A stretch of DNA of 64,000 nucleotides. Origin: Halichondria panicea. Its lineage: Eukaryota; Porifera; Demospongiae; Suberitida; Halichondriidae. Position numbers and translations under genes: made by a program. The stretch is taken from contig NC_087377.1 in assembly GCF_963675165.1 (NCBI RefSeq), positions 393,501 to 457,500 of the forward strand. Direction: 5' to 3'. The notes under the pieces were generated by a model, which was given only the letters and a program-made list of their open reading frames with translations, had not been told where the DNA came from and ran no database searches. Each line of letters begins with the position of its first letter. Positions within the stretch are counted from its first letter, which is position 1. Shown here in pieces: positions 10,039 through 57,037 of the stretch.

Positions 10039-13000
10039 TCAATTGGTGGCACTATGAGCAACTGCAGTTGCTGTCTTCACATACTTGTCTTCAATTTCCT
10101 CGGCTACATCGTTACACTCAACAGTAGGCCTCCTTAGACATTCACATATGTAAGCCCATGTCATCGGTGGTTCAGTGACTTGAAGACGCTTGCCCACCAT
10201 CTTCAGTAGGCGGCGTTGGTTATGGCGGTATGCATCTTCAATGTCTTCCAAGTCAGTAATCTTCATTCCAAGAGCCAGTCCCAAGTTGAACCAATCATTG
10301 CTGGCATTGTTCAGACTATCACAAATTATTAGAACATCATCTCCAGTCAGAACAATGGACGACCGTTGGTTTCTGCTAGGATGCTCCTCTTGTGATGATC
10401 CTATACACACAAGGAAATGGATTTAAAACAAGATTGATTAACTTGTCCAACATGTACAACCTTATTCTCACATTCCCTAACGTCACACAATTGATCTGAT
10501 GACATCGACACAATGAACAAATCTCTACAATGGAATGCTCGGCCTGATCGTAATCATTATAGACAAATGGGAATTATTGGATACTAAATTTAAGCCAACA
10601 CCAGATGTAGTTTCAACACATGTACATGTACTACATTCTACATACTCTAGTTCACTGATCTGTACGTGATGACATCTCATACCTTGTACAGTGACATCCT
10701 TCTTTGGACGCTTTAACAGAGTTTCACCTTCTTCACCTGATCCCAACAATCTTTTGCGGTGTCCTGGGGCTAGAGGATCTGTACACATATGCAGTAGGAA
10801 GTGTCAGCAATACGTATACATGATGTAACGGCATTAAAGAATGAAATGGCAGGTTTCTAATTATGAGTCCTCTGCATGATCCTCTCACCAGTGATGTGGG
10901 GTGGTCGGGATGAGTCCTCTGTATGGGGTCTGGGAACACACGAATCGTTTCTTTGTCTCTTTCTCTTCCCTGATAGCCGACCTAGTTTTTGGAACAATTT
11001 TTAGCTTTAGTGAACTTCACACAATCACACTTACCATCGTATTTCTCCTCAATCGTATTTGCTAGAACGTCTTGTCTGACAGTGCCACTTCTGAGGCCAT
11101 TGCAAATGTCACTCCATGTACGAGAAGGTGAAGATTCCAGCCACTGGGTCAGCATTCTAATCAAACCATCTTTATTGTGATTTGTGTGACACTTGATATT
11201 CTCAAGCGTGGCAACTGGGATCCCTAAAGCGAGGCCCAACTCAAACCAAACATTAATGGCTTCCATTAATTGAGAAACAACTTCTTGCAAGTCTTTAGTG
11301 TATAATTGATTTTCATCTTCTTGATCATCATGTACAGCAATGCCTGCAGTGAGAATAGTCCTTTAACTAAAGATGGGAATGACCAATAGAGATAACACAT
11401 AAACCTATATATAGAAGAACAATCGGATTGAAGGATGGCAGTTTTGCAACTGAGTGTTTGGTTTTTGCTATAATTACTATATGCAGTGACAGATCATACC
11501 TTGTACAGTAATGTCAGTCGTTGGACGCTTTGAAATTTTTTTATTGCGCTGACCTGAGGCTAGAGGATCTGCAGGAATAGATACAGTGCTAATGTTAATT
11601 ATAAACAGTTACAAAGTTGTTACATAGTCTAGCTAACTGACTATTAAATAATGTCTTTGTGCTACATTGAGAGACATGTATGAACATAAATATGGGCCTA
11701 GAATAACTGGTAAGCATAATCTCACGTTCCACAGAAGTCTCACTGCCCAGAACTGATGGTTGTGACGATGCGTCAGAGGCTACACTCATAGATGGACACA
11801 CAGAGAGCCAATCTTTGTGACCTTTTTCTAACTTATACGTCATTCTATTGCGTTGAGTACACGTCATAGAAGTGCCCTTAGCCACAACACAAGCTGGGTG
11901 GTGGGGCACTTGGGGACTTGCTTCAGTAGAGGGCAATTCATGGGGACACAAAAATGCAACTTCAGGATCCTCATACGTGTATTTCAGGGCTTTGTAAGCT
12001 GATCGAAGACCAGAGTGAACATTTTCATTTATCAACGACAATATGTCTTTCCGATTAGTACTGGAATGAATTTCGAGGAATGAAAACCCGTCAATTAGCG
12101 TAACAAAAAAATTTTCCTGACGATGAAAAAATTGTACAAAGTTTCTACTCGGCTGGTGATCATCTATGTCAATTTCCCATTCACATTCTTTAATCAGGTA
12201 CACTTGGAGACAGCAAAACACTCCACAGCACTGCCAGTTATTTTTGAAATGTAAAACGAGTGGGATCAAATTACCGGTCTTAAGCAAATCAGCTCGTTTG
12301 TCATTGACTTGAGTCGGTGGAAGCAAGGATAGAAGTGATGGCATATAGAAACGCTTGTCTTGTCCTCGTGAGAATATACCAAATGGGGTGGCTATCAGCA
12401 AGTGCTTGAATATTTCAATCAGATCAATGGGTGCAAAGAGTCCATCGATGTAGTGCTTTTCAAAATTTTTCTCAGATAAAAGTTCAATTGTAATAATTCC
12501 TTTGTCAAAAACATCAAACAAGTTTCCAAACCCAGGATCATTGCTAACTCGCATGTATGCAGCATACTCGACAAGCTCTGTTACTTTATCGAGAAGCACT
12601 TGAGTATCACAGAATACCACATTTGGTAGAATGGTAGGATAGTAGTGAAAGATGTGATGCTCATGGAAGAATTTTAAAGCTTCACAAAGTGCATCTTCGT
12701 GAAAATTATGTAATGCTTTTGCAATTTGTTCACATTCGGTCTTGCTTAAAACTTTTCTTTTTTCATCGTTTGAAACCTTCTCGACAATAATTTCCAAAAC
12801 AAACCACCAAAAAGGGACCTTGATTTTAAGATTTTGAGATAGTTTGTGAACATATTCACGAATTGTCTTTGCCACTTTCTTACTGTCAGGATCGCATTTC
12901 TTGCAATTCACAGGAAATATGACATCCTTCTTCCTACATTTGAAAAACAAAGTTAAGTTCTTAATGCAATCCTTCTGAGTAAAGTTGAACAAAGTTTTAT

Positions 13001-13927
13001 TTTTGTCTGATAATGTTTCCTTGCATTCAGATTGATGGTCTTTGTGAGTACCAATGCATACCAGCTTGCAGTTTTCACTGTGAGATTGAATTGACTGCAC
13101 GAGATACTTGAAGTTATCCAGAACTGAGAGATGGGACTTAAAAGCTTCACCAACTGGCTCATTATCCTTGTAGTATTCAACCAGCGGATGATCGTCTAGG
13201 CAGTCAGAGAGACGAAGAATGTACAACGCTACAGAAATCTTGGGCATGAAGAGTGGCAGAAGATTATGAAAGTGTGGTTGCCCACCGCTATCGATTATGT
13301 AGATCCAATGAGATCCAAACTTTTCTTGAACAGCAGTACGATCAGCGTCAGAAAATCGCTTAATACTCGCCATTACATTTGAAACAGTTTTAAGAAATTT
13401 ACTCTTTTTTCCTTCTCGCGTTATTTCTGCTCCAGCTACTGATGGTTTAGTTGTTCTTGAAGTTGAAGGAGTCGCATCAACTGGCGTACTTGATTCATTG
13501 CTAGGTTCAAGTTGCTTCAGAGCAATGCTGAGTTCTAGTGGGATAGCAGATTCTTCACTGGTTACACGAGATTTAATAGCATCAGCAACAATGCGTTGTA
13601 GGTCATCACTAGTTACTGGTTTCCAGAGATCTTCCTGAGCTTCCATTTGTATCTTCGTAGTGTGACAGTCACGAATTTGTCGACTATCCATCTTCTCCTT
13701 TGTAGTGTGATGATTTGGTTGAATACATATCCTCTCTGCTGTGCTAGCTAATGGAGTACTATTTCGATCTACAGGAGGAGACAGTCCCAGAAGGAGATGC
13801 TTAGTGGAGGTTTTACCAGTGCCAGCCATTCCAAATAATAAGATATTAGTAATGCTCACAGGGACAAATCCAGCCTTCATGGCATCATTAAGAGCTTGCT
13901 CAGACTTGGATGATTCATCATTGAGGG
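10039..13927 (-). CDS. Gene A: ROC/COR-like GTPase with two death domains (5-prime exon unresolved)
   Basis: Exons: 13927-11726, 11568-11500, 11343-11035, 10969-10889, 10778-10683, 10400-10039. All junctions are GT-AG and every intron is phase 1, giving at least 1,039 residues. The large exon carries a P-loop (FGMAGTGKTSTK, about 13,800-13,835), a DSGGQ switch motif (about 13,276-13,292) and THKD (about 13,036-13,050), the nucleotide-binding signature of ROC-type GTPases. A COR-like region follows (FWWFVLEIIVEKVS; FFHEHHIFHYYP; VVFCDTQVLLDKV). Exon 2 is a basic hinge (PLASGQRNKKISKRP). Exon 3 is a death domain (VWFELGLALGIP; MLTQWLE; RTWSDICNGLR). Exons 4-5 are a linker and a second copy of the hinge (PLAPGHRKRLL). 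Exon 6 is a second death domain (DWFNLGLALGMK; PMTWAYICECLR) ending in TGA. A cytoplasmic signalling GTPase is likely; compare DAPK1, which also joins ROC-COR to a death domain. The upstream exon is probably near 13,985-14,045, where GTSSRDV precedes a GT. Confidence 0.8.
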
Positions 13928-14111
13928 CTGAAATAATAGGAATAATAATAGACTGAAACACGGAGTGATTCACACGTACGTCCCTTGAAGAAGTACCCAG
14001 TATAATCACGTATGCACAGTAATAGTCACAGTTCATATTCACTTTCAAAAAGAAGTCATCTATAATACCGTCTAGTTATCATCTTCTGCAATTAACCTCT
14101 ACACATAATTA

Positions 14112-14407
14112 TACCGTATATGCTCGATCAGAGGCCGCTCTCAATAGTATAGCCTCCTTTGCTAGCAAAATGAGTAGCCACTCTCAAATAGTAGCCTCAT
14201 GCATACAGTGAACTTTGACTCTAGCATTTCTGGACGAGGCAGCCAAACAAATTAATTATTAATACTAGCAGCTAGCTACATGTACGTAGCTACTATAGGT
14301 ACAGGTATTAGTTAGTGCTTCACAAAGACTTTCTCAGAGCAGAACTTTTGATAACAAAACCAGCAAAATGTATATAGCCGCAGCCTCTGATCAAGCATAA
14401 TACGGTA
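14112..14407. mobile_element. MITE, 296 bp, cut by a duplication breakpoint
   Basis: Inverted ends: TACCGTATATGCTCGATCAG at the left and, inverted, TACCGTATTATGCTTGATCA at the right (14,383-14,407). The element's last 111 bases also open the second tandem copy at 21,511, showing that the duplication breakpoint at 14,297 lies inside this MITE. Confidence 0.8.
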
Positions 14408-14692
14408 TGCAATAATTATTCACATTCCAAGGATCACAAACTAGCAAACTAAATGACCATCATCAACACTACACATGCACTGCATGACACGTTACGTGAA
14501 GTCTCAATTAATACCAGCTATATAGCTAGCGTACGTTGCATTTACACATGGCTTGACATAATGATAGCGCAGTTCATATTTATATTGAGGCATGACACAC
14601 ACATACAGAGACTTGATGCTGAGGATTAATATTTTGGGTGTAAAATGTTTTTATCATTGTAAAGTGAGGTATTACAATAATCGCAATCTGAT

Positions 14693-14836
14693 TACCGTAC
14701 ATGCAGAGGGTAATTTTCGTAGGGTAAATATTTTCGTTGGCAAGCTGACCTCTACGAAAAAATTTTTACTCACAAAAATCACCGTTTTCCAGATAAACGA
14801 ATTTTTTACCTCACGAAAATTACCCGCTATATGGTA
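14693..14836. mobile_element. Short fold-back MITE
   Basis: The left arm TACCGTACATGCAGAGGG followed by TAATTTTCGTAGG is the imperfect inverse of CCTCACGAAAATTACCCG...ATGGTA at the right. The same arms recur at 21,907-22,050 as part of copy 2. Related GGGTAATTTTCGTGG-type ends occur near 44,500, 44,735, 60,100 and 61,770. Confidence 0.7.
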
Positions 14837-14861
14837 AGCACAAAAACAGTCTATGCACAAC

Positions 14862-15206
14862 AGGTTGCCACGAAGCAACAAATTCACAACGGAGGCAGCA
14901 CTAACCCTCAGGAAAACATACCACAAAATACCACAAATAAGTCAAAAGTGAGAGCAATGCCATCAATAGGGAGGTGGGTGGTGCTTTAAGGTTACGCTAA
15001 AATACCACTACTTACTACCTGACAGCACTGCTATTCACAACGGAGGCAGCTAACTCACAAAACAGGTAAAAGTGAGTTCATGCAATGCAATCAATAGGAA
15101 GGTGGGTGGTGCTTTAGCTATATCCTCGTCCCTACGTCCATTTCACCTCCAAGAAAGAGGGTCTGGTATCAGTATAATGGACTGAAAAGCCGACACTAGC
15201 CTCCAT
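14862..15206. repeat. About 340-bp subrepeat, five copies in the window
   Basis: Landmarks are CACGAAGCAACAAATTCAC, ATAGGGAGGTGGGTGGTGCTT, GGTTACGCTAAAATACC and GGTCTGGTATCAGTATAATG. Copies: here, 15,806-15,941 continued at 20,464-20,688 (split by piggyBac), 22,075-22,420, 23,036-23,384 and 63,523-63,842. Two copies lie in each tandem unit. No coding content recognised. Confidence 0.85.
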
Positions 15207-15941
15207 CGATGATATCAAGTGATGAATGAAATGGTTCACAGTCAATAAAGTGATCATGTGCTGTAATACTCAATTTCTTAATATAGTCTGACGATGACAA
15301 TGACAATATTAAAACAAAGTACACAGTAAGTGCAGTGAGCATTCTATGATAGTAATGAAGTATCTGCATATGATACTACAATGACAAGGTTAGCTGCCAA
15401 GTTGCTTCATTCTCAGATTCTTTGTGTCCAGTTAATTGTTGCTGACTCAGCAACACTTTCACCCGTTTTAAAATTGCATAACAAATCGTAATCACGGTGC
15501 GTATACGAATAAAACATGAGCGTTCAATTCCAGTTGACAAGACATTGTCAGTTTGCATAAAAACGACAACGTGACGTCCCATGCAAACGGTACAGGAACT
15601 TTATTCTGACGGCTATTGTATGTTATTACTCATGCACGAGGGATGTACTGCTAATACAACTAGAGCACGAGAGCAAGAGTTGTTTTAGCAGTACATCACG
15701 AGGGCATTATGTTATAATCAACTTAATGCTGATAGTGCGTAATAGTCTTGCATGCGTCATATACTGCGTTCCTAGTAGCAACCAATGACATTTGAGCATC
15801 TATGCGGCATAACAGGTTGTCACGAAGCAACAAATTCACAACAGAGGCAGCACTAACCCTCAGGAATTCATACCACAAAATACCACAAATAAGTCAAATG
15901 TGAGAGCAATGCCATCAATAGGGAGGTGGGTGGTGCTTTAA
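15207..15941. other. Left part of duplicated unit, no gene
   Basis: Starts with a GATATCAAGTGATGA block that recurs at about 22,425, 57,270 and 62,190. A 68-codon minus-strand frame (15,376-15,582) stays open in the copies, but nearly all differences between copies change the amino acid, so it is not treated as a gene. Confidence 0.6.
15642..15697. repeat. Conserved 20-bp-stem hairpin
   Basis: GATGTACTGCTAATACAACT at 15,642-15,661 pairs with AGTTGTTTTAGCAGTACATC at 15,678-15,697 with one mismatch and a 16-base gap. The same hairpin is in copy 2 (about 22,859-22,919) and in the third copy near 63,349-63,404, where the right arm has GTATTAG and pairs perfectly. Confidence 0.8.
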
Positions 15942-16271
15942 CCGATTAGCCGCGGTTGACGCTTTGAAGCGTCAATACGGGAATAGCTGATAGCCGCGGT
16001 TGACGCTTTGAAGCGTCAGCTGCACAATACTCCACTTTTTGCTCGTTTGTGGTAAGCTGAAACCTTCAAAGACACCACAGTTTTCGCAGGGATTCTCTCA
16101 AAGGATAACAGAAACCATACCGAGACTGATCACAGTAGGTTAGTTATCAAAAATTTGCTGATATTTTATTGTGAAAATTGCACACATAACTTTTTTGCAA
16201 TAATTTCAATGGTGAAGATACAGTTGATATAATACAATAAATACAATAATAATATATTCCATAGCATAACA

Positions 16272-18180
16272 ATGACAAAGAGGACTCTCTATACAAGGGA
16301 TGAGGTACTTCAGGGTATCCTTGACAGTAGTGAGCAGGACCTCTCTGACTCAGAACACACTGATGGCCTCGAAGACGATGATGGCCCCATGGCAGAAGGG
16401 AGTGACGATGAGTTCACAGACCTGGATGAGGAGGAACAAGAGTACCCTACACAACCAGACATCCCATTCGAGTATGTAAAAATTTATAATCAGCATAAAG
16501 TAGTTTCAAAGATTTAAATTTGCACAGGCACAGTGACACTCCAAGACAGTCACCAGAAACAACCCTCCCATCATCAGAAATAACCCTCTCACCCATAGAC
16601 TTCAATTTCTCACCACCTGACTTAGAACCCCCCATCTCACCAACTGACCTAGAACCCACTCACCCTAAACGTCCGACCACAAGGTAACACCAAGTAGACA
16701 ACAATGGAGTTACTTTTAGAGAATGTACTAATAATAATTATATACAGCTAATAATTACAATTATAACTTTACTTGCACAGAGGCAGAGGCAGAGGCAGAG
16801 TCATGAACAGAACTAATTCTACAAGGTAAAGCCAACACTATTGAAAATGATATCATTGGGAACAAGTGACCATACATAGCAAACAGTACATACACAAACC
16901 AACCTTACTTTATAGGCAGGAGTGCCTAAGGAACAAACACCTCACACCCCCACAAGCCTATAGGCCTGTCAGGTACAGCACATACATATTGAATAAAAAG
17001 GTCACAACACTATCATGCAATCTCAATTACTATTTGGACAAAGCAAATACATAAGGCTGGAGCAAGAAACAGAAACACCTAGAATTGTGAATTATGAGTG
17101 TACAGAAGTTTATCAACAGGAATATTAATTTTGTCTTGGGAAAGCAACTGCACATTTTGGTCACCTTTTATCATGCAATCAATAATCTCTTTACAGACAC
17201 TCAAAGTACATGTAGTAATTATGCCTGTACCTAAATACACCTTACAAGCAAAGCACAATTAAAAAGATGACATTGGGCACAGAATGACACAAGCCAGTCA
17301 TAATTATACAGAATTGAGCTATGGTGCCAACCCTTCAGTAAAAAGGTCAAAAGATTATCACACAATCAATCCTAATAAGCACTCTGTTTACAGACACTCA
17401 AAGTACATGTAGTCCTGTACCTAAATACACCTTACAAGCAAAGCACAATTAAAAAGATGACATTGGGCACAGAATGACACAAGCCAGTCATAATTATACA
17501 GAATTGAATTTCTCCTATGGTGCCAACCCTTCAGTAAAAAGGTCAAAAGATTATCACACAATCAATCCTAATAAGCACTCTGTTTACAGACACTCAAAGT
17601 ACATGTAGTCCTGTACCTAAATACACCTTACAGGCAAAGCACAATTGACATTGGGCACAGAATGACACAACCAAGTCATACAGAATTGAATTTCAACCTA
17701 GGGTAACCTACAGTGGCAACAACCCTTCAGTCAAAAGGTGATCATGCAATCAATAACTTATCTTTACAGCCACTCAAAGTTTGTGTACATGTAGTAATTA
17801 CACAAGCAAAGATGAAATACACAAGAGACAGCATACTACATACCACACACAACAGCTGTACAATCATGGGTTATCATTGGGAAAAATAATTATCCAGACA
17901 ACCACACAAGCCAAAGTAAATTGTGACCTCTGGTAACAGACTGATTACAGTCCACACACACATAAATTATATCCAGTGAGTGCTACAGCAATTTACACAA
18001 CAATGGAAGCTAATCAAGCTAAGAAAACACAAGCTGTACAACACTGCCTAGAGGCACATAATTATAATATCTTACAATGTAGCAAACAGAAATTGCAAAT
18101 ACAAGCCTTGGCATACAGTGTAAAAGGGCACTTTGTTGTAGCATCACACACACACGCACACGCACGCGCACGCGCACGCG

Positions 18181-18265
<85 letters not shown>

Positions 18266-19837
18266 AAAGCAGTGCCACTCCTGGTTCCTCCAGTCAATGG
18301 ACTCCCACCATTCGTGACCATCCACGGCAATTGTTCACTCAATCTGTTGGCCCGACTGTGATCATTTCAGATTCTCCACTGGAGACCTTCCAACTACTGT
18401 TCACACCTGAGATGTTGGAGTACATCGTTACTGAAACAAATAAGTACGCAGACCAAAGTATGACCCCATTACAGCACGAAAAGTGGATCCCTTTGACACT
18501 CGAAGAGCTCAAGGCCTATATAGGTTTTTGCATATTGATGGGCGTAGTTACGCTCCCATCAATAGAGGATTATTGGAAGAAAGACACCCTTCTCCACTAC
18601 TCACCTATCGCATCCAAGATCTCAAGGGATCGGTTCAGAGATATTCGTCGCTACCTCCATTTCGCTGACAACACAACGCTCCCAACTCCCGGCACCCCTG
18701 GTAGTGATCGCTTGGCAAAAGTACGTCCCCTCATCAACAAAGTCAATGAGCGCTGTTCGGCAGTGTACTTGTTAGACCGGGACGTGGCTGTTGATGAGGC
18801 GATGATTAAGTTCCAGGGAAGATCGTCACTCAAGCAGTACCTCCCCAACAAGCCTGTGAAGAGGGGAATAAAGGTATGGGTGTTAGCTGATAGCAAGAAT
18901 GGCTACTTCCACACCATGCAAGTCTACACTGGAAGGCAGGGCACACCAGAAAAACATCTAGGCACCCGAGTTGTCAAAGACCTCACTACTTCGCTGAAGG
19001 GAAAATACCACCATGTGTACTTTGACAACTATTTCACTTCACTAAACCTCCTCGAAGACCTGGAAAAGGATGGGATCTATGCTTGTGGAACAACTCGCAG
19101 CAACCGTGTTGGTTTCCCTGTAGATCTTAAGGATCCAAGCCTGCCTGACAGGTATATAAATGATTATTACAGTAATTCTATTACTTTAGCTTACCTTTTT
19201 CAGAGGAGATTATTTGATGAGGCAGAAGGACACGGTCACAGTGACAGCCTGGAAGGACAATAGGATTGTCCGTGTAATGTCCACGGCCTCTGACCCCACT
19301 GCCAGCTCCACTGTAAATCGGCGATGCAGGACAGGAGAGAAGATCGCTGTACCATGCCCTCAGTGCATTGAAGACTACAATCGGTTGATGGGTGGCGTTG
19401 ATAGAGGAGACCAGATGAGGGGGTACTATCGATGCCCTACAAAATTTCACAAATTTTACATGTACATCTATTCATTTCTGATGGATGTATGTGTAACCAA
19501 TAGCTACATACTACACTCAAGATACTCCTCACCCTCAAACAAGAGCAAGACAAGCCTCTCTTTTCGCCTTCGGCTGGCAGAGGAGCTGATCGGAAGCTAT
19601 GCGTCTAGGAAGAGAGGAGTGGGGACACATACTACAGCGAAGACGCTACCCATAGCCCACTTCCCCCTGCATCACCAGGAAGGATGTAGAGGGCGCTGTC
19701 ATCTATGCAAATCGATAAAAGCAAGAAAAGACTCCCTGTGGTTTTGCCAGGCATGCCAGAAATGGTTCTGCCACACAGGAGACACTTCTACAGACTGCTT
19801 TATGACATGGCACAAGAGAGCAGTCACAACAACATGA
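16272..19837 (+). CDS. piggyBac transposase, five exons, open throughout
   Basis: Exons 16272-16471, 16528-16683, 16781-16825, 18273-19151 and 19204-19837 join through GT-AG introns to 1,914 bases, 637 residues. Exons 1-3 encode an acidic, proline-rich N-terminus (TRDEVLQGILDSSEQDLSDS) and an RGRGRGR patch. The main exon begins with TPTIRDHPRQLF and contains SAVYLLDRDVAVDEAMIKFQ (first catalytic aspartate), then YFDNYFTSLNLLEDL (second). The last exon has YNRLMGGVDRGDQMRGYY (third) and a C-terminal cysteine-rich domain with CHLCK, FCQACQKWFC and DCFMTWHK, which in this family binds the subterminal DNA. The three acidic residues perform hairpin cut-and-paste transposition at TTAA. No stop or frameshift is visible. 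Intron 3 is long and holds tandem repeats and a CA tract. Confidence 0.9.
17196..17800. repeat. Tandem repeat of about 196 bp in transposase intron 3
   Basis: Three units begin at 17,196, 17,393 and 17,589 with GACACTCAAAGTACATGTAG, and a partial fourth starts near 17,769. Each unit includes ACATTGGGCACAGAATGACA and ends in a TTTACAG that resembles an acceptor. The second and third are nearly identical. Confidence 0.9.
18147..18263. repeat. CA microsatellite before transposase exon 4
   Basis: A run of about 115 bases of CA/CG-CA dinucleotides that ends ten bases before the exon 4 acceptor (CCCAAAGCAG at 18,263-18,272). Confidence 0.95.
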
Positions 19838-20467
19838 ACTCTAGTTGCTGTTATCTATTATTGTTTTATCTAATTATGTTTATGATAAAGGCTGTAAAAG
19901 CTGTGCTTACAGACACAGGTACTATCTACCTATATATATTTATGTATATTATATCTATGTATATATTTCCTAAAGAAAACGGTTGTAGTTTCTAAGTTAT
20001 GCATCTTTCTTTGCCAGAGGCGAATGCTGAACAAAAAGATAAAATTGAATATCTAACCGTGTAGGCTACACTCTAAAAAGGGTCTGTAAACATATTCAGC
20101 TACTACTAAACTATACTCTCTACATACTGAGGCATCTAAGTAGGTATCTAAGTACAGTACATCAGCTAAGAACGCTTATAAAGGCTTCACAAGCTACAAG
20201 TACGATCGTTATACGCACAAAACGCTTACCTCTAAAATGATCCTTCGCTGTGGCCTTGGCTGGTTGACAATTCCGTTGCAATCCAGGAGATCCTGATAGA
20301 GTAGCTACTGTAGACTAGCTAGCTGCAAAGTTGCCCAAAGAAAACTGCTACCGTTTCGAAGCTACGCAGCTTTCTTTGCTAAGGGCTGAAAACTGGAAGT
20401 ACTTTAAAAAATGGTTCCGCGGTGGGAGGTACTACGTATGAAATCATAACCGCGGCTATTCGGTTAA

Positions 20468-21510
20468 GGTTACGCTAAAATACCACTACTTACTACCTGA
20501 CAGCACTGCTATTCACAACGGAGGCAGCACTAACTCACAAAACAGGTAAAAGTGAATTCATGCAATGCAATCAATAGGGAGGTGGGTGGTGCTTTAGCTA
20601 TCCTCGTCCCCACGTCCACTTCACCTCCAAGGAAGAGGGTCTGGTATCAGTATAATGGACTGAAAAGCTGACACTAGCCTCCATCGATGGACGGACCACG
20701 CCCATATAACACTAACGTAGGCTCTATTAAGAGAGCTGTGAAGAGCAGCTGTAACAAACCTAACCTCTGTCTCAAGCTAGCTAGCTATATAATTATAGCG
20801 TATAAAGAGAAGTGGGCTATATGTACTGGGCAACATCTAAACAAGAGGCCGTATCAAATAAATTGCTATGGCCTCGGGGTAGGAAATGATTGACTTGCTA
20901 AAAGGATTCTAAAACTTCAAACTTAAAAACAACAACACGTGGTAGACAGACGTGGTAGACAGTACATTTGATGCTGGTGGCAGCTCTTTTATCACCCTGG
21001 CTACTAATAATATCTTCGCTCTATTGCAGGGACACTATTGCGTCTAAACTGAGACTAAAGATTCTACTCCAAGGAGGCAAAAAAACTAGCCATAAACTCG
21101 AATATTTGCACTAGTTAAAATCTAATTAACAAAAAGTGGTTAAGAGCCATAGTAAGCATCGAGGCAAGCACAATAAAATAATGTATTCGTAAACCCTAAC
21201 TCCATATATGGGCGTACATGCAGTAAACCCTTTCAATCACAGGGTCATGAGTATTATTATAGTGTTAACGTGTTTTCAGCATTACACAAAGCGTGTGTGT
21301 ATAAAGAGAAGAAAGCATGCAACTCACTATGTATACTAGGGAACGTTTAAAAATGTGAGGCTGTATCAATTTACACATGAAGGCAGCTCTAAAAATAGCT
21401 ACAGTATGATTTTGACTCAGTCTGAGCAGCACGCCCACTTCTCTTAATTTAAACGTACCACTGATTGATACTTCATATTATTATTACTCACTTGATGAGG
21501 TTAGGTTAAT
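20468..21510. other. Right part of duplicated unit, no gene
   Basis: Matches 23,161-24,203. It includes the end of a 340-bp subrepeat and then about 800 bases of A+T-rich DNA with no exon I can support. A 68-codon plus-strand frame at 20,687-20,893 is identical in both copies but has no domain or splice context. Confidence 0.6.
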
Positions 21511-24203
21511 AGGTACAGGTATTAGTTAGTGCTTCACAAAGACTTTCTCAGAGCAGAACTTTTGATAACAAAACCAGCAAAATGTATATAGCCGCAGCCT
21601 CTGATCAAGCATAATACGGTATGCAATAATTATTCACATTCCAAGGATCACAAACTAGCAAACTAAATGACCATCATCAACACTACACATGCACTGCATG
21701 ACACGTTACGTGAAGTCTCAATTAATACCAGCTATATAGCTAGCGTACGTTGCATTTACACATGGCTTGACATAATGATAGCGCAGTTCATATTTATATT
21801 GAGGCATGACACACACATACAGAGACTTGATGCTGAGGATTAATATTTTGGGTGTAAAATGTTTTTATCATTGTAAAGTGAGGTATTACAATAATCGCAA
21901 TCTGATTACCGTACATGCAGAGGGTAATTTTCGTAGGGTAAATATTTTCGTTGGCAAGCTGACCTCTACGAAAAAATTTTTACTCACAAAAATCACCGTT
22001 TTCCAGATAAACGAATTTTTTACCTCACGAAAATTACCCGCTATATGGTAAGCACAAAAACAGTCTATGCACAACAGGTTGCCACGAAGCAACAAATTCA
22101 CAACGGAGGCAGCACTAACCCTCAGGAAAACATACCACAAAATACCACAAATAAGTCAAAAGTGAGAGCAATGCCATCAATAGGGAGGTGGGTGGTGCTT
22201 TAAGGTTACGCTAAAATACCACTACTTACTACCTGACAGCACTGCTATTCACAACGGAGGCAGCTAACTCACAAAACAGGTAAAAGTGAGTTCATGCAAT
22301 GCAATCAATAGGAAGGTGGGTGGTGCTTTAGCTATATCCTCGTCCCTACGTCCATTTCACCTCCAAGAAAGAGGGTCTGGTATCAGTATAATGGACTGAA
22401 AAGCCGACACTAGCCTCCATCGATGATATCAAGTGATGAATGAAATGGTTCACAGTCAATAAAGTGATCATGTGCTGTAATACTCAATTTCTTAATATTA
22501 TAGTCTGACGATGACAATGACAATATTAAAACAAAGTACACAGTAAGTGAAGTGAGCATTCTATGATAGTAATGAAGTATCTGCATATGATACTACAATG
22601 ACAAGGTTAGCTGCCAAGTTGCTTCATTCTCAGATTCTTTGTGTCCAGTTAATTGTTGCTGACTCAGCAACACTTTCACCCGTTTTAAAATTGCATAACA
22701 AATCGTAATTATGGTGCGTATACGAATAAAACATGAGCGTTCAATTCCAGTTGACAAGACATTGTCAGTTTGCATAAAAACGACAACGTGACGTCCCATG
22801 CAAACGGTACAGGAACTTTATTCTGACGGCTATTGTATGTTATTACTCATGCACGAGGGATGTACTGCTAATACAACTATATAGAGCACGAGAGCAAGAG
22901 TTGTTTTAGCAGTACATCACGAGGGCATTATGTTATAATCAACTTAATGCTGATAGTGCGTAATAGTCTTGCATGCGTCATATACTGCGTTCCTAGTAGC
23001 AACCAATGACATTTGAGCATCTATGCGGCATAACAGGTTGTCACGAAGCAACAAATTCACAACAGAGGCAGCACTAACCCTCAGGAATTCATACCACAAA
23101 ATACCACAAATAAGTCAAATGTGAGAGCAATGCCATCAATAGGGAGGTGGGTGGTGCTTTAAGGTTACGCTAAAATACCACTACTTACTACCTGACAGCA
23201 CTGCTATTCACAACGGAGGCAGCACTAACTCACAAAACAGGTAAAAGTGAATTCATGCAATGCAATCAATAGGGAGGTGGGTGGTGCTTTAGCTATCCTC
23301 GTCCCCACGTCCACTTCACCTCCAAGGAAGAGGGTCTGGTATCAGTATAATGGACTGAAAAGCTGACACTAGCCTCCATCGATGGACGGACCACGCCCAT
23401 ATAACACTAACGTAGGCTCTATTAAGAGAGCTGTGAAGAGCAGCTGTAACAAACCTAACCTCTGTCTCAAGCTAGCTAGCTATATAATTATAGCGTATAA
23501 AGAGAAGTGGGCTATATGTACTGGGCAACATCTAAACAAGAGGCCGTATCAAATAAATTGCTATGGCCTCGGGGTAGGAAATGATTGACTTGCTAAAAGG
23601 ATTCTAAAACTTCAAAGTTAAAAACAACAACACGTGGTAGACAGACGTGGTAGACAGTACATTTGATGCTGGTGGCAGCTCTTTTATCACCCTGGCTACT
23701 AATAATATCTTCGCTCTATTGCAGGGACACTATTGCGTCTAAACTGAGACTAAAGATTCTACTCCAAGGAGGCAAAAAAACTAGCCATAAACTCGAATAT
23801 TTGCACTAGTTAAAATCTAATTAACAAAAAGTGGTTAAGAGCCATAGTAAGCATCGAGGCAAGCACAATAAAATAATGTATTCGTAAACCCTAACTCCAT
23901 ATATGGGCGTACATGCAGTAAACCCTTTCAATCACAGGGTCATGAGTATTATTATAGTGTTAACGTGTTTTCAGCATTACACAAAGCGTGTGTGTATAAA
24001 GAGAAGAAAGCATGCAACTCACTATGTATACTAGGGAACGTTTAAAAATGTGAGGCTGTATCAATTTACACATGAAGGCAGCTCTAAAAATAGCTACAGT
24101 ATGATTTTGACTCAGTCTGAGCAGCACGCCCACTTCTCTTAATTTAAACGTACCACTGATTGATACTTCATATTATTATTACTCACTTGATGAGGTTAGG
24201 TTA
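21511..24203. repeat. Tandem duplication, copy 2 (no transposon)
   Basis: This direct repeat of copy 1 abuts it without spacer. It preserves the truncated MITE end, both 340-bp subrepeats, the fold-back MITE (21,907-22,050), the hairpin and the unoccupied TTAA site. Near-identity suggests a recent event. Confidence 0.9.
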
Positions 24204-24735: not shown

Positions 24736-24739
24736 TCTA

Positions 24740-28580: not shown

Positions 28581-29392
28581 CACCCTCTATAATACAGCCA
28601 GGTTTGATAAGGGACCCAGAGTCAGCCTCTGCTGTATAATCAATAAGCCAGATTAATGGGCCCCAAAGTCTCCATAGCATGTGTTTGGACCTGTGTTAGC
28701 AGGCCACCCTCTATAATACAGCCAGGTTAATGGGCCCCAAAGTCTCCATAGCATGTGTTTGGACCTGTGTTAGCAGGCCACCCTCTATAATACAGCCAGG
28801 TTAATGGGCCCCAAAGTCTCCATAGCATGTGTTTGGACCTGTGTCAGCAGACCACCCTCTATAATACAGCCAGGTTAATGGGCCCCAAAGTCTCCATAGC
28901 ATGTGTTTGGACCAGTGTTAGCAGGCCACCCTCTATAATACAGCCAGGTTAATGGGCCCCAAAGTCTCCATAGCATGTGTTTGGACCAGTGTTAGCAGGC
29001 CACCCTCTATAATACAGCCAGGTTAATGGGCCCCAAAGTCTCCATAGCATGTGTTTGGACCAGTGTTAGCAGGCCACCCTCCATAATACAGCCAGGTTAA
29101 TGGGCTCCAAAGTCTCCATAGCATGTGTTTGGACCTGTGTTAGCAGGCCACCCTCTATAATACAGCCAAGTTAATGGGTCCCAAAGTCTCCATAGCATGT
29201 GTTTGGACCTGTGTTAACACCACCCTCTATAATACAGCCAGGTTAATGGGCCCCAAAGTCTCCATAGCATGTGTTTGGACCTGTGTCAGCAGACCACCCT
29301 CTATAATACAGCCAGGTTAATGGGCCCCAAAGTCTCCATAGCATGTGTTTGGACCTGTGTTAGCAGACCACCCTCTATAATACAGCCACTGT
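28581..29392. repeat. Minisatellite, 74-bp unit, about 10 copies
   Basis: Units share CCCTCTATAATACAGCCAGG, GGGCCCCAAAGTCTCC and ATAGCATGTGTTTGGACC. Unit starts are near 28,581 (longer, diverged), 28,708, 28,782, 28,856, 28,930 and so on to 29,370. Variation is confined to a few positions, such as CCTGTGTTAGCAGG versus CCAGTGTTAGCAGG. Confidence 0.9.
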
Positions 29393-32122: not shown

Positions 32123-32277
32123 GAAACAGTGAGTACTGCCGCGTGCAGAGTGTGACTCTTTCCCTGACCAAACTTTGATCTCTCTTTCCCTGACCAAACT
32201 TTGATCTGAGCATATTAATGTGATAGGCCTTATTTAACAGTGCTTGGAATAGTTATTCGCTGTACTCCCCCCTAGTG

Positions 32278-43740: not shown

Positions 43741-43954
43741 TGTTTTGTAGTTTGTGCTTTTTGCGCTGTACTCCCCCCTTGCATGTGTGACTGTGTTTTG
43801 TAGTTTGTGCTTTTTGCGCTGTACTCCCCCCTTGCATGTGTGACTGTGTTTTGTAGTTTGTGCTTTTTGCGCTGTACTCCCCCCTTGCATGTGTGACTGT
43901 GTTTTGTAGTTTGTGTGCTTTTTGCGCTGTACTCCCCCCTTGCATGTGTGACTG
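43741..43954. repeat. Tandem repeat, four 53-bp units
   Basis: Units start at 43,741, 43,794, 43,847 and 43,900 (the last two bases longer). Each contains TTTTTGCGCTGTACTCCCCC and TTGCATGTGTGACTG. The CGCTGTACTCCCCCCT core also stands at the left edge of the satellite (about 32,259-32,274). Confidence 0.95.
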
Positions 43955-47561: not shown

Positions 47562-49148
47562 AGCTGCAGGCCAAGAGGCCACACTGGACCACGGAGGAGG
47601 TTCTACAAGACATCTTGAATGATGAGGAACCTACAGAGGAGTGGGAAGAGGATATGGAAGAGGTAACAGCGGACAGGGATGAGCCAGTCATGCACGGCAG
47701 TGACAAAGAATTTTCTGATTGGGATGAAGGTGGGGTCTAAAACTAAACTGAATACCGATATAATTTATTTTACAACGTACATGTAGAAATGGAGCCCCCG
47801 TCAACAGACAGCAATCCTGCACAAGGTAAATTAAATTGTGACAGTGCCAATGAAAAGGGACCTTAACGCGGCAATAATTAAATTAAGCTATAGGCCAATT
47901 TAGTAGAAATGAAAAACATGGGCAAAAATTTTTTTTTTCACAGGTGCTAACTTCAACCCTTCCTCTACCTACCTGTAAAGTCTCTACGAAGCTTTAAACA
48001 GGTCAAGCGCGGACGTTGAAGAAACTCACCGAACGCTCATTTTGAAATTTACTGTCTACGTGAGTATTATTGTTAATTATTTTTAACAATAATTTATTAA
48101 TAATTATAAGGTTAACAATTTGTACCAGCTATTGATAAATCCATTCCTAGACGACACAAGTGACGACACAAGTGGTCCAAGCAACTCGTCACACGGTTTG
48201 TGCAATGTTATGAAGTACAATTACAATCAGTTAGACTACCACACAAAACTAATGTACAGGTAATTATTATTACCCTCACATTTATTTAGGCAATGAGCAA
48301 CCTACCTGGAGGAGTGAATTGCACACCCTGACTATCAAGTCATTTGAGTCAGCAGTAGGACCAACAGTGGACATCTCAGAGAGGCCAGAAGAAGTGTTTC
48401 TGCTATTTTTTAACAATGATCTGCAGGAACACATTGTGTGTGAGAGCAACAACTACGCTAGACATGTAATGGGAGAGGAGGCATACCGAACGTGGACTCA
48501 ACACACAGTTTAAGAGCTCTGGGCCTTCTTCGGATTCTCCATCCTCATGGGACTCAATCACCTGCCATCGATCAATGACTATTGGAGCCGAGACCACTAT
48601 GCACCCATCGCCGATGTAATCTCAAGGCAGAGATTCCGTGATATCTCCCAGTATCTGCACTTCGTGGACAACGACCATCTTGTTCCACGAGGTGACCCCT
48701 CGTACAATCGGTTAGGGAAGATCCGCCCCCTCATTCAGCACCTGGGTGAGAGGTTCGAAGCTTTGTACAACCCTACACAGAATGTAGCAGTGGACGAAGC
48801 AATGATTAAGTTTCAGGGGCAGTCTTCCTTAAAGCAATATAATATGCCTATGAAACTGATCAAACGGGGGATCAAGGTATGGGTATTGGCAGATAGTGCT
48901 AACGGCTATTTCCACAAATTTGACATATACACGGGGAAGCAAAAGAAGAGACAGGTTGGACTTGGTGAGTATGTTGTCAAAACATGTGCCTGCAACCACC
49001 TGCAAAGAGATGTAAACGGGGATGGTGTGCGTTCTGCTGGAAGGACTCCAACAAGAAGACTGACAGATGTAACGAGTGTGGTGTCTGGCTCTGCCATGGT
49101 GGAAACCCAACATCAGACTGTTTCTATTTGTGGCATAAGAACTTGTAA
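47562..49148 (+). pseudogene. piggyBac transposase pseudogene with internal deletion
   Basis: The first exon (about 47,562-47,729) encodes an acidic N-terminus (TTEEVLQDILNDEEPTEEW) like exon 1 of the intact copy. Further small exons lie near 47,789-47,825 and 48,152-48,197. The main exon (from about 48,290) reads SFESAVGPTVDISERPEEV, then an in-frame TAA at 48,511, then continues open with INDYWSRDHYAPIADVISRQ and NVAVDEAMIKFQGQSSLKQY (first catalytic aspartate). After EYVVKT (about 48,983) the sequence jumps straight to the cysteine-rich C-terminus in another frame (CAFCWKDSNKK, CNECGVWLCH, DCFYLWHKNL). The stretch holding the second and third catalytic aspartates is missing, so it cannot encode an active enzyme. 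It is clearly a different family from the intact element. Confidence 0.85.
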
Positions 49149-49467
49149 ATATTATAATTATTATCTTATTTACTGTTTATGATAATTATTATTTATTAGT
49201 ACGGCTTCATTATAGTCACATGATGTACGCTAATGATACACACTAATCATTATAATTATTTAAAGCAACAAAGCTACGCGTACATATATACGTACTGCAT
49301 CGCTCGGTAGATTAATAATACACAGCCTATCACTCACCTTGTGACACGTACGTTTGGTTGACTGCTCCACCACCTGAGAATCACACGCATCTGTGATCCA
49401 GCAATACTCTGTACACACAAAGAAAGATGATGAAGGGTTCTTAGTACTACAAATTCTAGATACAATG
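49149..49467. other. No gene seen
   Basis: A+T-rich DNA after the pseudogene; no terminal repeat recognised. Confidence 0.4.
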
Positions 49468-49962: not shown

Positions 49963-49968
49963 CACACA

Positions 49969-50009
<41 letters not shown>

Positions 50010-50042
50010 CCGTATACCTCGCTTGCGCATGCGCACCGAGGC
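49468..50042. repeat. Dispersed repeat with CA tract, copy 2
   Basis: Homologue of 24,272-24,735, then CACG/CA microsatellite 49,924-50,007, then TACCTCGCTTGCGCATGCGC followed by ACCGAGG, as also found after the CA tract at 25,868. Confidence 0.8.
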
Positions 50043-51286: not shown

Positions 51287-51920
51287 AAGGTAGCGCTCAC
51301 CTTTCCCCTGAGTCAGAGTGTCGGTCCATTGTGTCCAGTGCACCGTGCTAGCTAGTAGGACCACTCCAATGGATGTGCTCTCAGAGCATTAGAACTGATG
51401 AAGCACATGGCCAGTGGGTAAAGATCGTCAAACCATTAGACAAAATATGTTTCATTTTGTAGATTTGATAACCCTTTGGACCTTTACCAGACACGCTCAC
51501 ACACAAGATGGAGACAGCTGGTGAGGAAAAGCGTTCACTTGTCCTTCCCTCTAGGAGCTTCCACAAGGCTGGATATCTGGTGGATACTCACCCAAAAGAC
51601 CAGTAGCAATGGATCACAAGGCAAAGAGCATTGCAGCGAGTACAAGTGAGTGGCTAGTCATGATCAAAAGTGTACCACCTAGTGTATAGGCTGCTTTAGA
51701 TGACTGGCATTCAATATCTGCTAATAGATATCGTTACTAGTGATCAAACTATACAGCCTCTGTGACAAATGCATCCATTGTTGCACATTTGTTGACCCGT
51801 TACTTCATTGCGTACAGTGCTAGTGATGGAGAGCACGAGAGGGGCGGAGTCAGTGACACCTTTCTATGACAACATATGATGGAGGAGTTACAAGGTGACA
51901 CTGTGGAGTTTGCGTACAAC
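51287..51920. repeat. Second copy of the 30,973-31,640 segment, with a broken exon
   Basis: Contains the METAGEEKRS exon from ATG 51,508, now interrupted by TAG at 51,604 (codon 33). It is cut at its right end by the 51,921 element. Confidence 0.85.
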
Positions 51921-52824: not shown

Positions 52825-52834
52825 ATTAAACTCT

Positions 52835-53113
52835 CTGATCATGAGGAGGCCACGTTGTTAACAAGAAGCTGCAACTGAAGTGATCCTGTACCCAACAATA
52901 ATGGTAAAGGGTCATTAAACTAGAAAGCTGGAAATGAAATTTTATAAAAATAGAAGGTGGTATAATCAAACACAGAACACAGAGCATTATAATAGTCAGT
53001 ACTTATAGTCAACACAGAGTTAGTTCTTTACTTGACATTCTTGCATGCTTCTTTACTTGACATCTTTATTCGTCCCTTTCAAGCAACTCCAGTATCTGTA
53101 TGAAAGCATGAGC
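52835..53113. repeat. Downstream flank of gene B shared with gene A
   Basis: Matches 9,660-9,955 closely, then diverges. Confidence 0.85.
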
Positions 53114-53324
53114 ACAATAAACTAGAGCCTTATAAGCAAAACATTGTGTGCAATGAAAATAGGGATCAGATTTATAATTATTCCAGTAATATCTGTATGA
53201 AAACATGAGTGCATGATACATGATTTAGGAGCCCTCAGGGCTAGTAGAACCATCAAGTACTTAGAATGCTGTATACTATTATTGCATGGCACTACTGACG
53301 AGCAAGCTCACAAAGGTATAATGG

Positions 53325-56300
53325 TCAAAGTGATGATTCACTAGGTAACTCACTGGTATACTCCACACAGGCCTTGTGAATGCTGCGAACTGCCTCTCCA
53401 TCCTCAATCTCTGAGGCAATTTCCACTAATCGACCGTAAGTAGCTGTTGAATTCGATGGATTGATTTGAAGAATATTTTTACTCTTCCACTTCTTTAGAG
53501 CAGCGTGAAATCTCTCTGAAACACCAACAAATATGTGATCGATATTCTCAACTTCAGTCTTGCTGAGGCCCAGCCTGTGCTTGTATGTGTCATAACCAGC
53601 AATCTCGGTAGACAACTGGAGAAGAGCTCCATTCGAGCACTCTTGACTCAACTGAGCTGCGGTCGCTGTCACTATCGTCGTCTCATGAACTGTAGAGATC
53701 AAAATACCTCATCAATGACATGCAACGCAAGTAGTAGCATAATTAGAAATGCAAATACTCCATCACTGTCACATGATACACATGTATACACAATGCAACT
53801 GTCAAAGCTACTCGAACCACTTTGGACTATAATTATACTGAAGATGGTTAGATTGACTATAATTATGTGATGCATAACATGATCACATTCCCATGAAGTG
53901 GTTCCCTAATTAAGCTTAATCCTAATCAATCATGTGAACAAATGCTAGAATTGGGCAGGGAAAGCACCAAATAGCACGGAAACAAGCAAGTATAATTATA
54001 GGAGAGAACCAACCAATGACACAATGACATTGACAGTATCACAATTAAGTACAATTAAAATAGCAAACACTTAATGCTGTACTTATAGTACAATTCACTA
54101 TAAGAAGTAGTATAACTCACTGGTATGCTCCACACAGGCCTTGTGAATGCTGCGAAATGCCTCTCCATCCTCAATCTTGGTAGCAATCTCCACTAATCGA
54201 CCGTAAGTAGCTGTTGAATTCAATGGATTGTTAAAAATGATGCTTTTACTCTTCCACTTCTTTAGAGCAACGTGGAATCTCCCAGGGATATTATTAACGG
54301 TGGTAGGATTCTGATCGATAGCGTCTATCTCAGCATCACTGAGGCCCAGCCTGTGTTTGTATCTGTCATAACCAGCAACCTTGGTAGACAACTGGCGAAG
54401 AGCTTCATCTGAGCACTCTTGATTCAACTGAGCGGCAGTCGCTGTCACTATCATCTGATGTGGTTGAACTGTACAGATAAACATAATTATGTTCTAAAAA
54501 TAATAATAACGCATAATTATTATAGTCAATCATGTACTTACAGTAGCTGTGAAAATACTATGTGGAGTGGCTAGTTGAGTGTATATATTTAAAGAAGATG
54601 ACAGAATCATTTGTTTCATTATTTTCAACTGTAATGATAGATCATACCTTGTACAGTTCCATCATTCTTCGGAACCTTTGACAGAGTTTCAACTGATGGC
54701 AATGATATTTTGCGCTGGCCTGAGGCTGCAGGAATATATAGATACAGTGCCGTGTCATCTTTTACAAATTAAGTTGTTACACTGACAGCATGTGCTACAT
54801 TGAGAGACCTACGTACATGTACATGTACATGTCCAGTAATATATAGTTATGTTATAGCATGATCTCACGTATACGTTCCACAGAAGTCTCACTGCTCAGA
54901 ACTGTTGGTTGTGATGATGCCACACTGGCGACACTCATAGATGGACAACACACCGAGAGCCAATCTTTGTGACCGTTTCCTAACTTATACATCATCCGAT
55001 TGCGTTGAGTACACCTCATAGAAGTGCCCTTACCCAGAACACGAGCTGGGTGGTGGGGCACTTGGGGACTTGGACTTGCTTCAGTAGAGGGCAATTCATG
55101 GGGACACAAAAATGCAACTTCAGGGTCCTCATACGTATATTTTAGGGCTTTGTAAGCAGATCGAAGACCAGAGTGAACGTTTTCATATATCAAAGACAGC
55201 ATTTCTTTTCGATTGTTACTGGAATGAATTTCGAGGAATGAAAACCCGTCAATTAGCGTGATAAAACAATCTTCCTCTCGATGAACGAATTGTACAAAGT
55301 TTCTACTCGGCTGGTGATCCTCCATTTCAATTTCCCATTCACATTCTTTAATTAGGTACACTTGTAGACAGCAAAACACTCCACAGCACTGCCAGTTGCT
55401 TTTAAAGTATAAAACAAGTGGAATTAAACCGGTCTTAAGCAAATCAGCCCGTTTGTCATTGACTTGAGTTGGTGGGAGCAAGGATAGAAGTGATGGCATA
55501 TAGAAACGCTTGTCTTGTCCTCGTGAGAATAAACGAAATGGTGTGGCTATCAGCAAGTGCTTGAATACTTCAATGAGATGAGTAGGCGCAAATAGTCCAT
55601 CGACGTAGTGCTTTTCAAAATTCTTATCAGATAAAAGTTCAATCGTAATAATTCCTTTATTGGTAAATTTTAACCATTTTCCAGACCCGTGTATTGGAGT
55701 GTTACTTCCTCGCACATATGCAGCATACTCGACAAGCTCTGTAACTTTATCGAGAAGCACTTGAGTATCACAGAACACCACATTTGGAAGAATTTCAGGA
55801 TAATAGTGAAAGATGTGATGCTCATGGAAGAATTTCAAAGCTTCAAAAAGTGCATCTTCGTGAAAATTATGTAGCGTTTTTGCAATTTCTACACATTCGG
55901 TCTTGCTTAAAACTTGTCTGTTTTGTTCGTTTGAAACCTTCTCGACAATAATTTCCAAAACAAACCACCAAAAAGGGACCAAGATTTCAATATTATTCAG
56001 CTCTTCGTGAACATATTCACGAATTGCCATTGCCACTTCTTTACTGGCAGAATCGCAGTGCTTGCAATCGACAGGAAATATAATTTCTTTTTTCAGACCC
56101 AAATTGAAAAACATGGTCAACTCATCATTCTCCACAAAGTTTAACAAAGTTTTATTCTTGTCGGATAGTGTTTCCTTGCATTCAGATTGATGGTCTTTGT
56201 GAGTACCAATGCATACCAGCTTGCAGTTTTCATTGTGAGATTGAATTGACTGCACGAGATACTTGAAGTTATCCAGAACTGAGAGATGTGACTTGAAACC

Positions 56301-57037
56301 TTCACCAACTGGCTTATCGTCCTTGTAGTATTCAACCAGTGAATGATCGTCAAGGCAGTCAGAGAGACGAAGAATGTACAAAGCTACAGAAATCTTGGGC
56401 ATGAAGAGTGGCAGTAGATTATGAAAGTGTGGTTGCCCACCGCTATCGATTATGTAGATCCAATGAGATCCAAACTTTTCTTGAACAGCAGTACGATCAG
56501 CATCAGAAAATTGCTGTATATTCGCTATGACATTCGAAACAGTGCTAAGAAATTTACTCTTTTTTCCCTCTTGCATTAAATTTGCTCCTACTGATGGTTT
56601 AGAAGTTGCATCAACTGGCGTACTTGATTCATTGCTAGGTTCAAGTTGCTTCAGAGCAATACTGAGTTCTTGTGGGATATCAAATGCTTTAGAGTTAGAA
56701 TCTGAGCTGGCTACATGAGATTTAATAGCATCAGCAACGATGTATTGTAGGTCATCACTAGATACTGGTTTCCATGTTCTAGAGGGATCTTCTTGAGCTT
56801 CCATTTTTATCTTTGTAGTGCCACGAATTTGTCGAATACATATCCTGTCTGCTGTGCTAGCTAATGGAGTGCTATTTCGATCTATAGGAGGAGGCAGTCC
56901 CAGAAGGAGATGTTTAGTGGAGGTTTTACCAGTGCCAGCCATTCCAAAGAATAAGATATTGGTAGTGTTCACACGGACAAATCCAGCCTTCATGGCTTCA
57001 TTAAGAGCTTGCTCAGACTTGGAGGATTCATTGAGGG
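53325..57037 (-). CDS. Gene B: ROC/COR-like GTPase with a different pair of death-fold domains
   Basis: Exons: 57037 to 54875 (or 54869), 54725-54648, 54468-54121, 53689-53325; introns are all phase 1, giving at least 984 residues. The body is closely similar to gene A, with P-loop FGMAGTGKTSTK (about 56,920-56,950), DSGGQ (about 56,430) and THKD (about 56,195), and the same COR-like stretches. Differences include insertion of FDIPQELSIAL-side residues and loss of part of the linker. The hinge exon (PSGQRKISLPSVETLSK) matches that of gene A minus three codons at its start. The last two exons encode duplicated modules: YDRYKHRLGLSDAEID, FHVALKKWKSK, ATYGRLVEIATKIEDGEAF; and YDTYKHRLGLSKTEVE, FHAALKKWKSK, ATYGRLVEIASEIEDGEAV. 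These read as death-fold domains but are not the WFELGLALG type of gene A. The terminal exon runs through the position of the donor used by its sister exon and stops at TGA. Confidence 0.8.

Follow-up and report, generated by a model that had tools for sequence, protein, structure and literature searches.

A 64-kb window of the genome of the sponge Halichondria panicea (positions 393,501-457,500 of contig NC_087377.1, here called C1) carries two related genes, A and B, both on the minus strand, in which a large exon encoding a GTPase body of the ROC-COR type is followed by a hinge exon and a tail of Death domain exons. We compared this window, to whose coordinates positions refer unless a contig is named, with the rest of the assembly (131.5 Mb in 39 contigs). 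The analysis used the DNA of a single assembly, and genome-wide counts are lower bounds. The transcripts that would join the bodies to the Death exons are gene models predicted from the sequence.

Gene A consists of the body exon (11,726-13,927), which has a phase-1 acceptor and donor, hinge exon 1 (11,500-11,568), Death exon A1 (11,035-11,343), a small phase-1 exon (10,889-10,969) found at 85-92% identity in loci L012, L048 and L062, hinge exon 2 (10,683-10,778), which is related to the hinge of gene B, and the terminal Death exon A2 with the stop codon (10,039-10,400). This tail is fuller than first described, with its second Death exon, second hinge and small extra exon. Gene B has a body exon (54,875-57,037), one hinge exon (54,648-54,725) and two B-type Death exons, B1 (54,121-54,468) and the terminal B2 with the stop codon (53,325-53,689). 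The limits, from the body at 13,927-11,726 to the stop at 10,039 in gene A and from the body at 57,037-54,875 to the stop at 53,325 in gene B, are confirmed to the base. From the body onward, all five modelled introns of gene A and all three of gene B are phase 1, as are both body acceptors, with AG and GT at the splice sites. A frame scan of 13,950-24,000 for the start exon of gene A gave nothing convincing, its candidates not having been scanned with Pfam.

The two genes had been said to share a near-identical body. The body is indeed common to both, but at 84% protein identity and 85.3% DNA identity over 2,279 bp it is less alike than that phrase implies. One hinge exon (72% over 112 bp) and the DNA downstream of the tails (94.2% over 292 bp) are also held in common, as had been noted, together with a 65-bp upstream piece (84.6%) that recurs elsewhere in the window. 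No DNA match between the two tails appeared in a self-comparison of both regions.

Pfam evidence alone was too weak to identify the body, with scores for Roc of only 13-14 bits against a cut-off of 27, and its identity was therefore settled by fold. The AlphaFold2 (AF2) model of the B body (predicted TM-score, pTM, 0.76) found its best matches in LRRK2 and in the Roc-COR of Roco, aligning over residues 19-702 with LRRK2 1329-1866 and over residues 2-694 with Chlorobium tepidum Roco 424-938. Matches of the model to G-alpha, Rab and Rag proteins reflect the shared GTPase fold and were set aside. The B body contains the motifs GMAGTGKTS (G1), DSGGQ (G3) and GTHKD (G4); THxD is the usual G4 motif of ROCO proteins. 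Across 38 aligned bodies the glycines of G1 and G3, the lysine, Asp and Gln, and G, T and D of G4 are invariant. Judged by the modelled fold, which for the A body is taken from its 84% identical counterpart, A and B are ROC-COR (ROCO) GTPase genes with COR directly after ROC; in both gene models COR is followed by the hinge and Death exons. The bodies have a median dN/dS of 0.35, a sign of purifying selection (dN/dS counts here exclude pairs with dS of 0.02 or less). Residues 56-185 of the B body, between the P-loop and switch II of ROC, form a long, fast-evolving and poorly predicted insert, a candidate sensing or regulatory region. A phmmer search of PDB with a single A body, and another with module B1, returned no match.

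The tails had been taken to hold two different types of death fold. This did not hold in the sense of Death, DED and CARD: all four modules are Death domains, drawn from two distant subfamilies. In a Pfam comparison Death (PF00531) was matched by A1 (E 3.2e-4, 21.2 bits), A2 (E 0.018, 15.6 bits), B1 (21.6 bits) and B2 (19.8 bits), each score lying below the cut-off of 22.6 bits. No DED or CARD model was listed in Pfam scans of these modules or of wider module sets, in which Death was listed. The B-type assignment rests on the AF2 model of B1, a six-helix Death fold whose nearest matches are known death domains. The A type is likewise a Death domain, as judged by sequence matches to Death and to solved relatives: Death was matched at E≤0.1 by 15 of 22 A-type modules (best 1.9e-5), and the top PDB match of the A-type profile was FADD (E 0.02). 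A division of the tails among Death, DED and CARD is thus ruled out by the Pfam scans and the B-type fold comparison. One tail exon, that of a 49% relative (L034), looked CARD-like by eye; no Pfam model matched it, and it was dropped.

A whole-genome search for further bodies and modules, run on this assembly, returned additional bodies as well as A- and B-type modules, and bore out the suspicion of a larger family. With the B body as query there were at least 64 matches (62 of 340 candidates scored), and 24 close-body loci, one of them broken, reached 79% or more (body family I). Thirteen of these carry an A-type tail and six a B-type tail, and in five none was recognized (L031 is counted as A through its A1 exon; without it the numbers are 12, 6 and 6). 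The A tail of L028 has a frame break and the body of L029 a stop. No tail was recognized within 5 kb downstream of L022, L024 or L026, and the gene next to L022 belongs to a different body family. Since the same kind of arrangement recurs among the 24 loci, that of genes A and B exceeds what chance would give. Bodies more remotely related to body I (33-39%) are also accompanied by A-like or B-like Death exons, in some cases at either end.

Two further body families, II (Pfam COR-A, E 1.2e-5, under the cut-off) and III (Roc at no better than E 0.06), use the same tails as body I, so that both tail types are carried by all three families. Among 31 places entered for body II, 10 had A, 12 had B, 5 had both and 4 had none; for the 36 entered for body III the numbers were 7, 5, 1 and 23. 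Rows left out of these counts are, for body II, an array on contig C6 (3.36-3.67 Mb, 53-57%), others at 40-60% and an 85% fragment at C1:4,664,657, and, for body III, rows on C4, C14 and C6:4.98 Mb at 44-60%. The tail modules entered comprised 99 of the 119 B rows; from the 150 A rows, we entered the first 54 as A2 and six later ones as A1. Feature chains join pieces up to 5 kb apart, and a few entries with both A and B may span two neighboring genes. Three body-II genes (L047, L048 and L062) have an Ig-like exon between ROC-COR and the hinge (Ig_2 at E 3.7e-4, under the cut-off, for the L048 copy) and an N-terminal exon, lacking a Pfam match, that occurs at 28 places in the genome, many of them just before body II.

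Death exons of both types also stand beside NACHT exons. At four loci on C14 (5.39-5.48 Mb) a NACHT exon follows a B-type Death exon at a distance of 1.2-2.1 kb, and A-type exons were also found just upstream of NACHT exons; NACHT scored 92 bits at L076, one of the Death-NACHT loci. From their sequences, the Death-NACHT genes appear to draw on the same Death subfamily as the B tails. On C15, a partial NACHT match (L024:580-1485, 38.3 bits) precedes a close ROC-COR body in the same open frame, a possible NACHT/ROC-COR fusion.

These distributions bear on whether the tails of A and B could go back to the same ancestral exons and have diverged once the two genes had duplicated. Both tails are Pfam Death domains, and to that extent they are indeed the same domain. 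However, the A and B profiles hardly align (HHalign probability 4.6%, P 0.009), the tail DNA shows no similarity although the bodies are 85% alike, and each subfamily recurs across three body families and beside NACHT exons. The tails are therefore not copies that drifted apart from the A/B duplication, and ordinary divergence is hardly credible as the source of their difference.

Four exons upstream of gene B, at 59,920-58,853 on the minus strand and missed in the original prediction, encode two SH3 domains. Unit 1 consists of exons at 59,835-59,920 (SH3_1 20.1 bits, under the cut-off of 22.9) and 59,421-59,550 (phase-1 donor), and unit 2 of exons at 59,225-59,316 (phase-1 acceptor) and 58,853-58,979 (phase-1 donor; SH3_1 25.3 bits, over the same cut-off). 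Each unit is interrupted by a phase-0 intron and has phase 1 at both of its outer borders, and for that reason could itself be exchanged. Gene B likely reads SH3-SH3-ROC-COR-Death-Death, with a predicted splice from SH3 to body. Gene B, L014 and L016 all have the last SH3 exon 1.2-1.8 kb ahead of their bodies, in copies 97.7-100% identical. Seven of the nine genome copies of this exon at 86% or more lie 1.2-2.9 kb before a body (three before body I, three before body III, one before body II); of the other two, one is without an entered body and the other precedes its nearest entered body II by 10.3 kb, with a further body-II fragment about 4 kb away. Frame scans upstream of A and B, with Pfam on two stretches upstream of B, gave SH3 at B only, where DAPK1-type kinases have an N-terminal kinase and ankyrin repeats. 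An upstream B-type cassette as the N-terminal part of either gene was considered and rejected, there being near them no B-type match besides gene B's own exons. The presumed SH3-to-body intron contains a perfect 204-bp inverted repeat (57,473-57,676 and 57,822-58,025, 145 bp apart), probably a recent foldback element.

We then asked how tail type is distributed over the phylogeny of the bodies. The body-I tree had 23 rows, 19 of them with a tail label (it omitted L023, which is almost identical to L022, and the broken copy L032/L033). A- and B-tailed genes are sisters in two pairs, L014/L016 (support 100/99) and L011/L019 (98/98), and a third clade is mixed; three other supported pairs share their tail type (L013/L015, L028/L030 and L029/L031). 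Forcing the six B-tailed genes together on the body tree was rejected by the approximately unbiased (AU) test (p-AU 8e-37). The label required five changes for the six B-tailed genes, and 53% of 5,000 label shuffles reached five or fewer. Tail type has no signal on the body tree. Nor do the B modules of body-I genes form one clade (p-AU 4e-5), and one of them groups with a module of body III (100/85). Tail modules are under milder constraint than bodies, with dN/dS of 0.55 for B and 0.68 for A2, and 10% of A2 pairs exceed 1.

The clearest sister pair is L014 and L016. They match at 94.3% over 3,704 bp from the SH3 exon through the body, at 82% over 240 bp of the next intron, and again at 86% over 296 bp of 3' DNA; the piece between these similar stretches holds an A2 exon in one gene and a B exon in the other. 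The same could in principle be written the other way around, with gene conversion copying body exons from gene to gene while each gene's tail stays in place. The similarity of the A and B bodies does end close to the exon limits, and the body tree is resolved only in part. Against this, the L014/L016 similarity spans the SH3 exon, the upstream intron and the body and is found again in the 3' DNA, which leaves the tail as the part that differs.

A second case comes from gene A itself. Its tail block (9,615-11,410) matches C1:359,500-361,300 (L062) at 97.9% over 1,799 bp, where it stands behind another body family: the gene upstream is a body-II gene with an Ig-like exon and a hinge, and it ends in an A2 exon of its own. 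On the left the block breaks off at 11,410, inside the phase-1 intron between hinge 1 and A1, and the match continues rightward to at least 7,799 (95.9% over 3,650 bp). Here the tail block occurs with no body-I DNA, behind a different body, which again speaks against moving bodies, an account we judge improbable. Between gene A and L012, the bodies are 86.7% alike and the tails 97-100% (A2 is partly present in the L012 data).

The DNA following the stop codons is built in the same modular way. A2 is followed by its own 88-bp spacer (9,951-10,038) and the B tail by another (53,117-53,324), all on the minus strand, and after them comes an element, u, common to both tails (9,660-9,950 in gene A, 52,833-53,116 in gene B). 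The two spacers are dissimilar to each other, each travels with its tail type, and each ends at the one common border where u begins. The A2 spacer was found at 90-98% in L062, L010, L014 and L020; in L011, L045 and L046 at most its first 28 bp matched, and gene B, L016 and L019 gave no match. The B spacer (query 53,117-53,344) matched L016 at 93% and L045/L046 at 85-87%, and L019 over its first 67 bp only. Each of the 40 scored matches to u (of 125 candidates) has a tail module on its 5' side, A2 in 14 cases and B in 26, and the distance from the end of the matched domain is nearly constant (92 bp in 11 of the 14 A2 cases, 219-253 bp in 25 of the 26 B cases). Many tails have no match to u or only a diverged remnant. 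Since u contains AATAAA, it is plausibly a common transcript end.

Differential loss offers another route to the same pattern, in which an ancestral tail would have contained both types of module one after the other, and one type would have disappeared from each gene. Mixed tails do exist: L048 has hinge, A1, small exon, hinge 2 and B, L047 has hinge, B, B and A2, and in L045 and L046 an A2 exon comes after a B exon that has part of u. Moreover, B1 read beyond its splice donor soon meets a stop, so that a B exon could be internal or last. However, repeated independent deletions would not readily give each module its own spacer up to a single u border, nor the near-constant distance to u. Loss also sits poorly with the recurrence of the gene A tail behind another body family, at 96-99% identity in each of its pieces, and with tails of A and L012 that are closer than their bodies. 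As a general explanation we find differential loss doubtful; it may account for some cases, starting from longer mixed tails.

False joins of bodies and tails could also arise if paralogues had been collapsed or made chimeric during assembly of a repeat-rich region. L022 and L023 (C1:4,709,927 and C1:4,749,869), with the genes next to them, are nearly the same segment twice, not identical to the letter, and may be such an effect. The pattern, however, is seen at many loci on several contigs, in distinct sequences and with consistent spacers, making an assembly artifact exceedingly improbable as its cause.

The exchange of tails itself is thus well supported. In the reading we consider likely, A and B are members of a large family of the ROCO type, built of exchangeable phase-1 cassettes, whose tails move between genes. 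The cassettes would be ordered as an N-terminal part, the ROC-COR switch, the hinge, and a tail of at least one A or B Death domain; in gene B the N-terminal part would be the two SH3 domains. The body side and u would serve as homology arms for exchange through ectopic recombination or gene conversion, and segmental duplication with breaks in phase-1 introns would be a further route; the phase-1 borders would preserve the frame. The original prediction had stopped at the possibility that exons could be swapped without loss of frame, and had seen one kind of body wired to alternative outputs; the genome shows actual exchange and supports both points. By analogy with known ROCO and Death domain biology, the protein may be a cytoplasmic sensor, in which a GTP-dependent change in ROC-COR would expose or cluster the Death tail, and the tail so presented could recruit Death domain adaptors. 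Swapping A for B, or a single for a double module, would then change the adaptor, and hence the output, while the switch is kept. The mechanism of exchange, the sensor/adaptor role and choice of adaptor, and an immune function are putative, and the transcripts are predicted.

Some tail modules stand alone. There are 63 tail-module chains without an entered body within 5 kb, in part surely because bodies were unscored or unentered. B-plus-u orphans lie on the minus strand of C1 at 1.38-2.40 Mb, and the 13 units read there (L063-L075) all have open frames and are almost the same in sequence (median dN 0.019, dS 0.026, dN/dS 0.54), with dN/dS above 1 in 17% of the kept pairs (52 of 78 pairs kept). 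Of the eighteen B-plus-u units on this strand, 13 have a body of family I, II or III 8-14 kb downstream of them, and five lie at 41-82 kb; random placement gave a mean of 1.7 and a maximum of 8 in 5,000 trials. The array is tandem-duplicated, and the 13 placements are therefore not independent events. No orphan B-type cassette lies near gene A or gene B. The orphan units may be ends of neighboring genes, N-terminal Death exons of receptor genes, or a reservoir of donors. A speculative extension, to which we give a low probability, is germline cassette exchange, in which orphan Death cassettes would be the donors, with homology arms provided by the body side and u; the switch would be repeatedly re-plugged to different Death-adaptor pathways, could vary between individuals, and could feed immune or self/non-self diversity.

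Other features of the window include an 11.5-kb tandem array between genes A and B (32,273-43,741) with a 40-bp unit in about 296 copies and a strong strand composition skew, and a 74-bp tandem repeat in 10 copies with 96% matches (28,642-29,388). Transposase stretches on the plus strand at 18,142-19,260 and 48,514-49,179, the second partial, match Pfam DDE_Tnp_1_7, the piggyBac type.

The diversity of receptors is usually looked for where they sense, and here it is the output end that is exchanged. The same kind of GTPase switch has been fitted, in close paralogues and across three body families, with Death domains that differ in subfamily and copy number, and the flanks are young enough (94-98% in the best cases) for breakpoints to be read. 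With young flanks and exchange at the output end, the rewiring of a sensor without touching its switch, and the occurrence of such rewiring in living populations, become testable. Death-tailed ROC-COR proteins are also relatives of LRRK2 and DAPK1 in which GTPase-Death coupling can be studied. In the literature searched (titles and the beginnings of abstracts, with subscription journals mostly outside its coverage), exchange of C-terminal Death exons between animal ROC-COR genes was not found.

Among the closest known systems is the ROCO family (LRRK1/2, DAPK1, MFHAS1/MASL1 and bacterial Roco), with which genes A and B share a ROC GTPase followed by COR, as well as the fold matches to LRRK2 and C. 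tepidum Roco. DAPK is also reported to have a C-terminal death domain (PMC3726526). No kinase or LRR (leucine-rich repeat) was recognized in the scanned parts of A and B, whose N-termini are incomplete. They differ from the family in the SH3 domains upstream of gene B and in a tail type that changes between close paralogues.

The brown-algal ROCO genes reportedly undergo shuffling of LRR exons, in work by Zambounis from 2012. In the accessible passages of a later account they show LRR exon shuffling with symmetrical exons and are proposed to be immune receptors (PMC11378527). The likeness lies in ROC-COR genes diversified by shuffling symmetrical exons, which excerpts of another paper also place in noncoding regions (PMC4104024). 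As far as these passages go, the algae shuffle N-terminal, ligand-binding LRR exons bordered by phase-2 introns, whereas in the sponge the exons exchanged are C-terminal, signaling and phase 1. The placozoan Trichoplax is credited, in the same excerpts, with at least 17 putative ROCO genes in which ROC-COR is surrounded by domains including CARD and death (PMC4104024). The exchange of tails between near-sisters, the spacers and the common 3' element are not reported for it, as far as those passages show.

Within sponges, the accessible text on NLRs gives them an N-terminal DEATH domain (PMC12909245). The likeness here is the combination of Death with NACHT, seen in this genome where A- and B-type Death exons lie just upstream of NACHT exons. 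Compared with these NLRs as the excerpts present them, A and B have ROC-COR with C-terminal Death, and NACHT was not recognized in their scanned parts. Amphimedon is described, in the portion of the source available, as having a lineage-specific TRADD-N/Death-like expansion with N-terminal Death-like domains and variable C-termini that include SH3 (PMC8195603). No TRADD-N model was listed for the tail modules in the Pfam scans. From what that portion conveys, such sponge expansions center on TRADD-N, and in H. panicea it is the C-terminal Death exons of ROC-COR genes that are exchanged.

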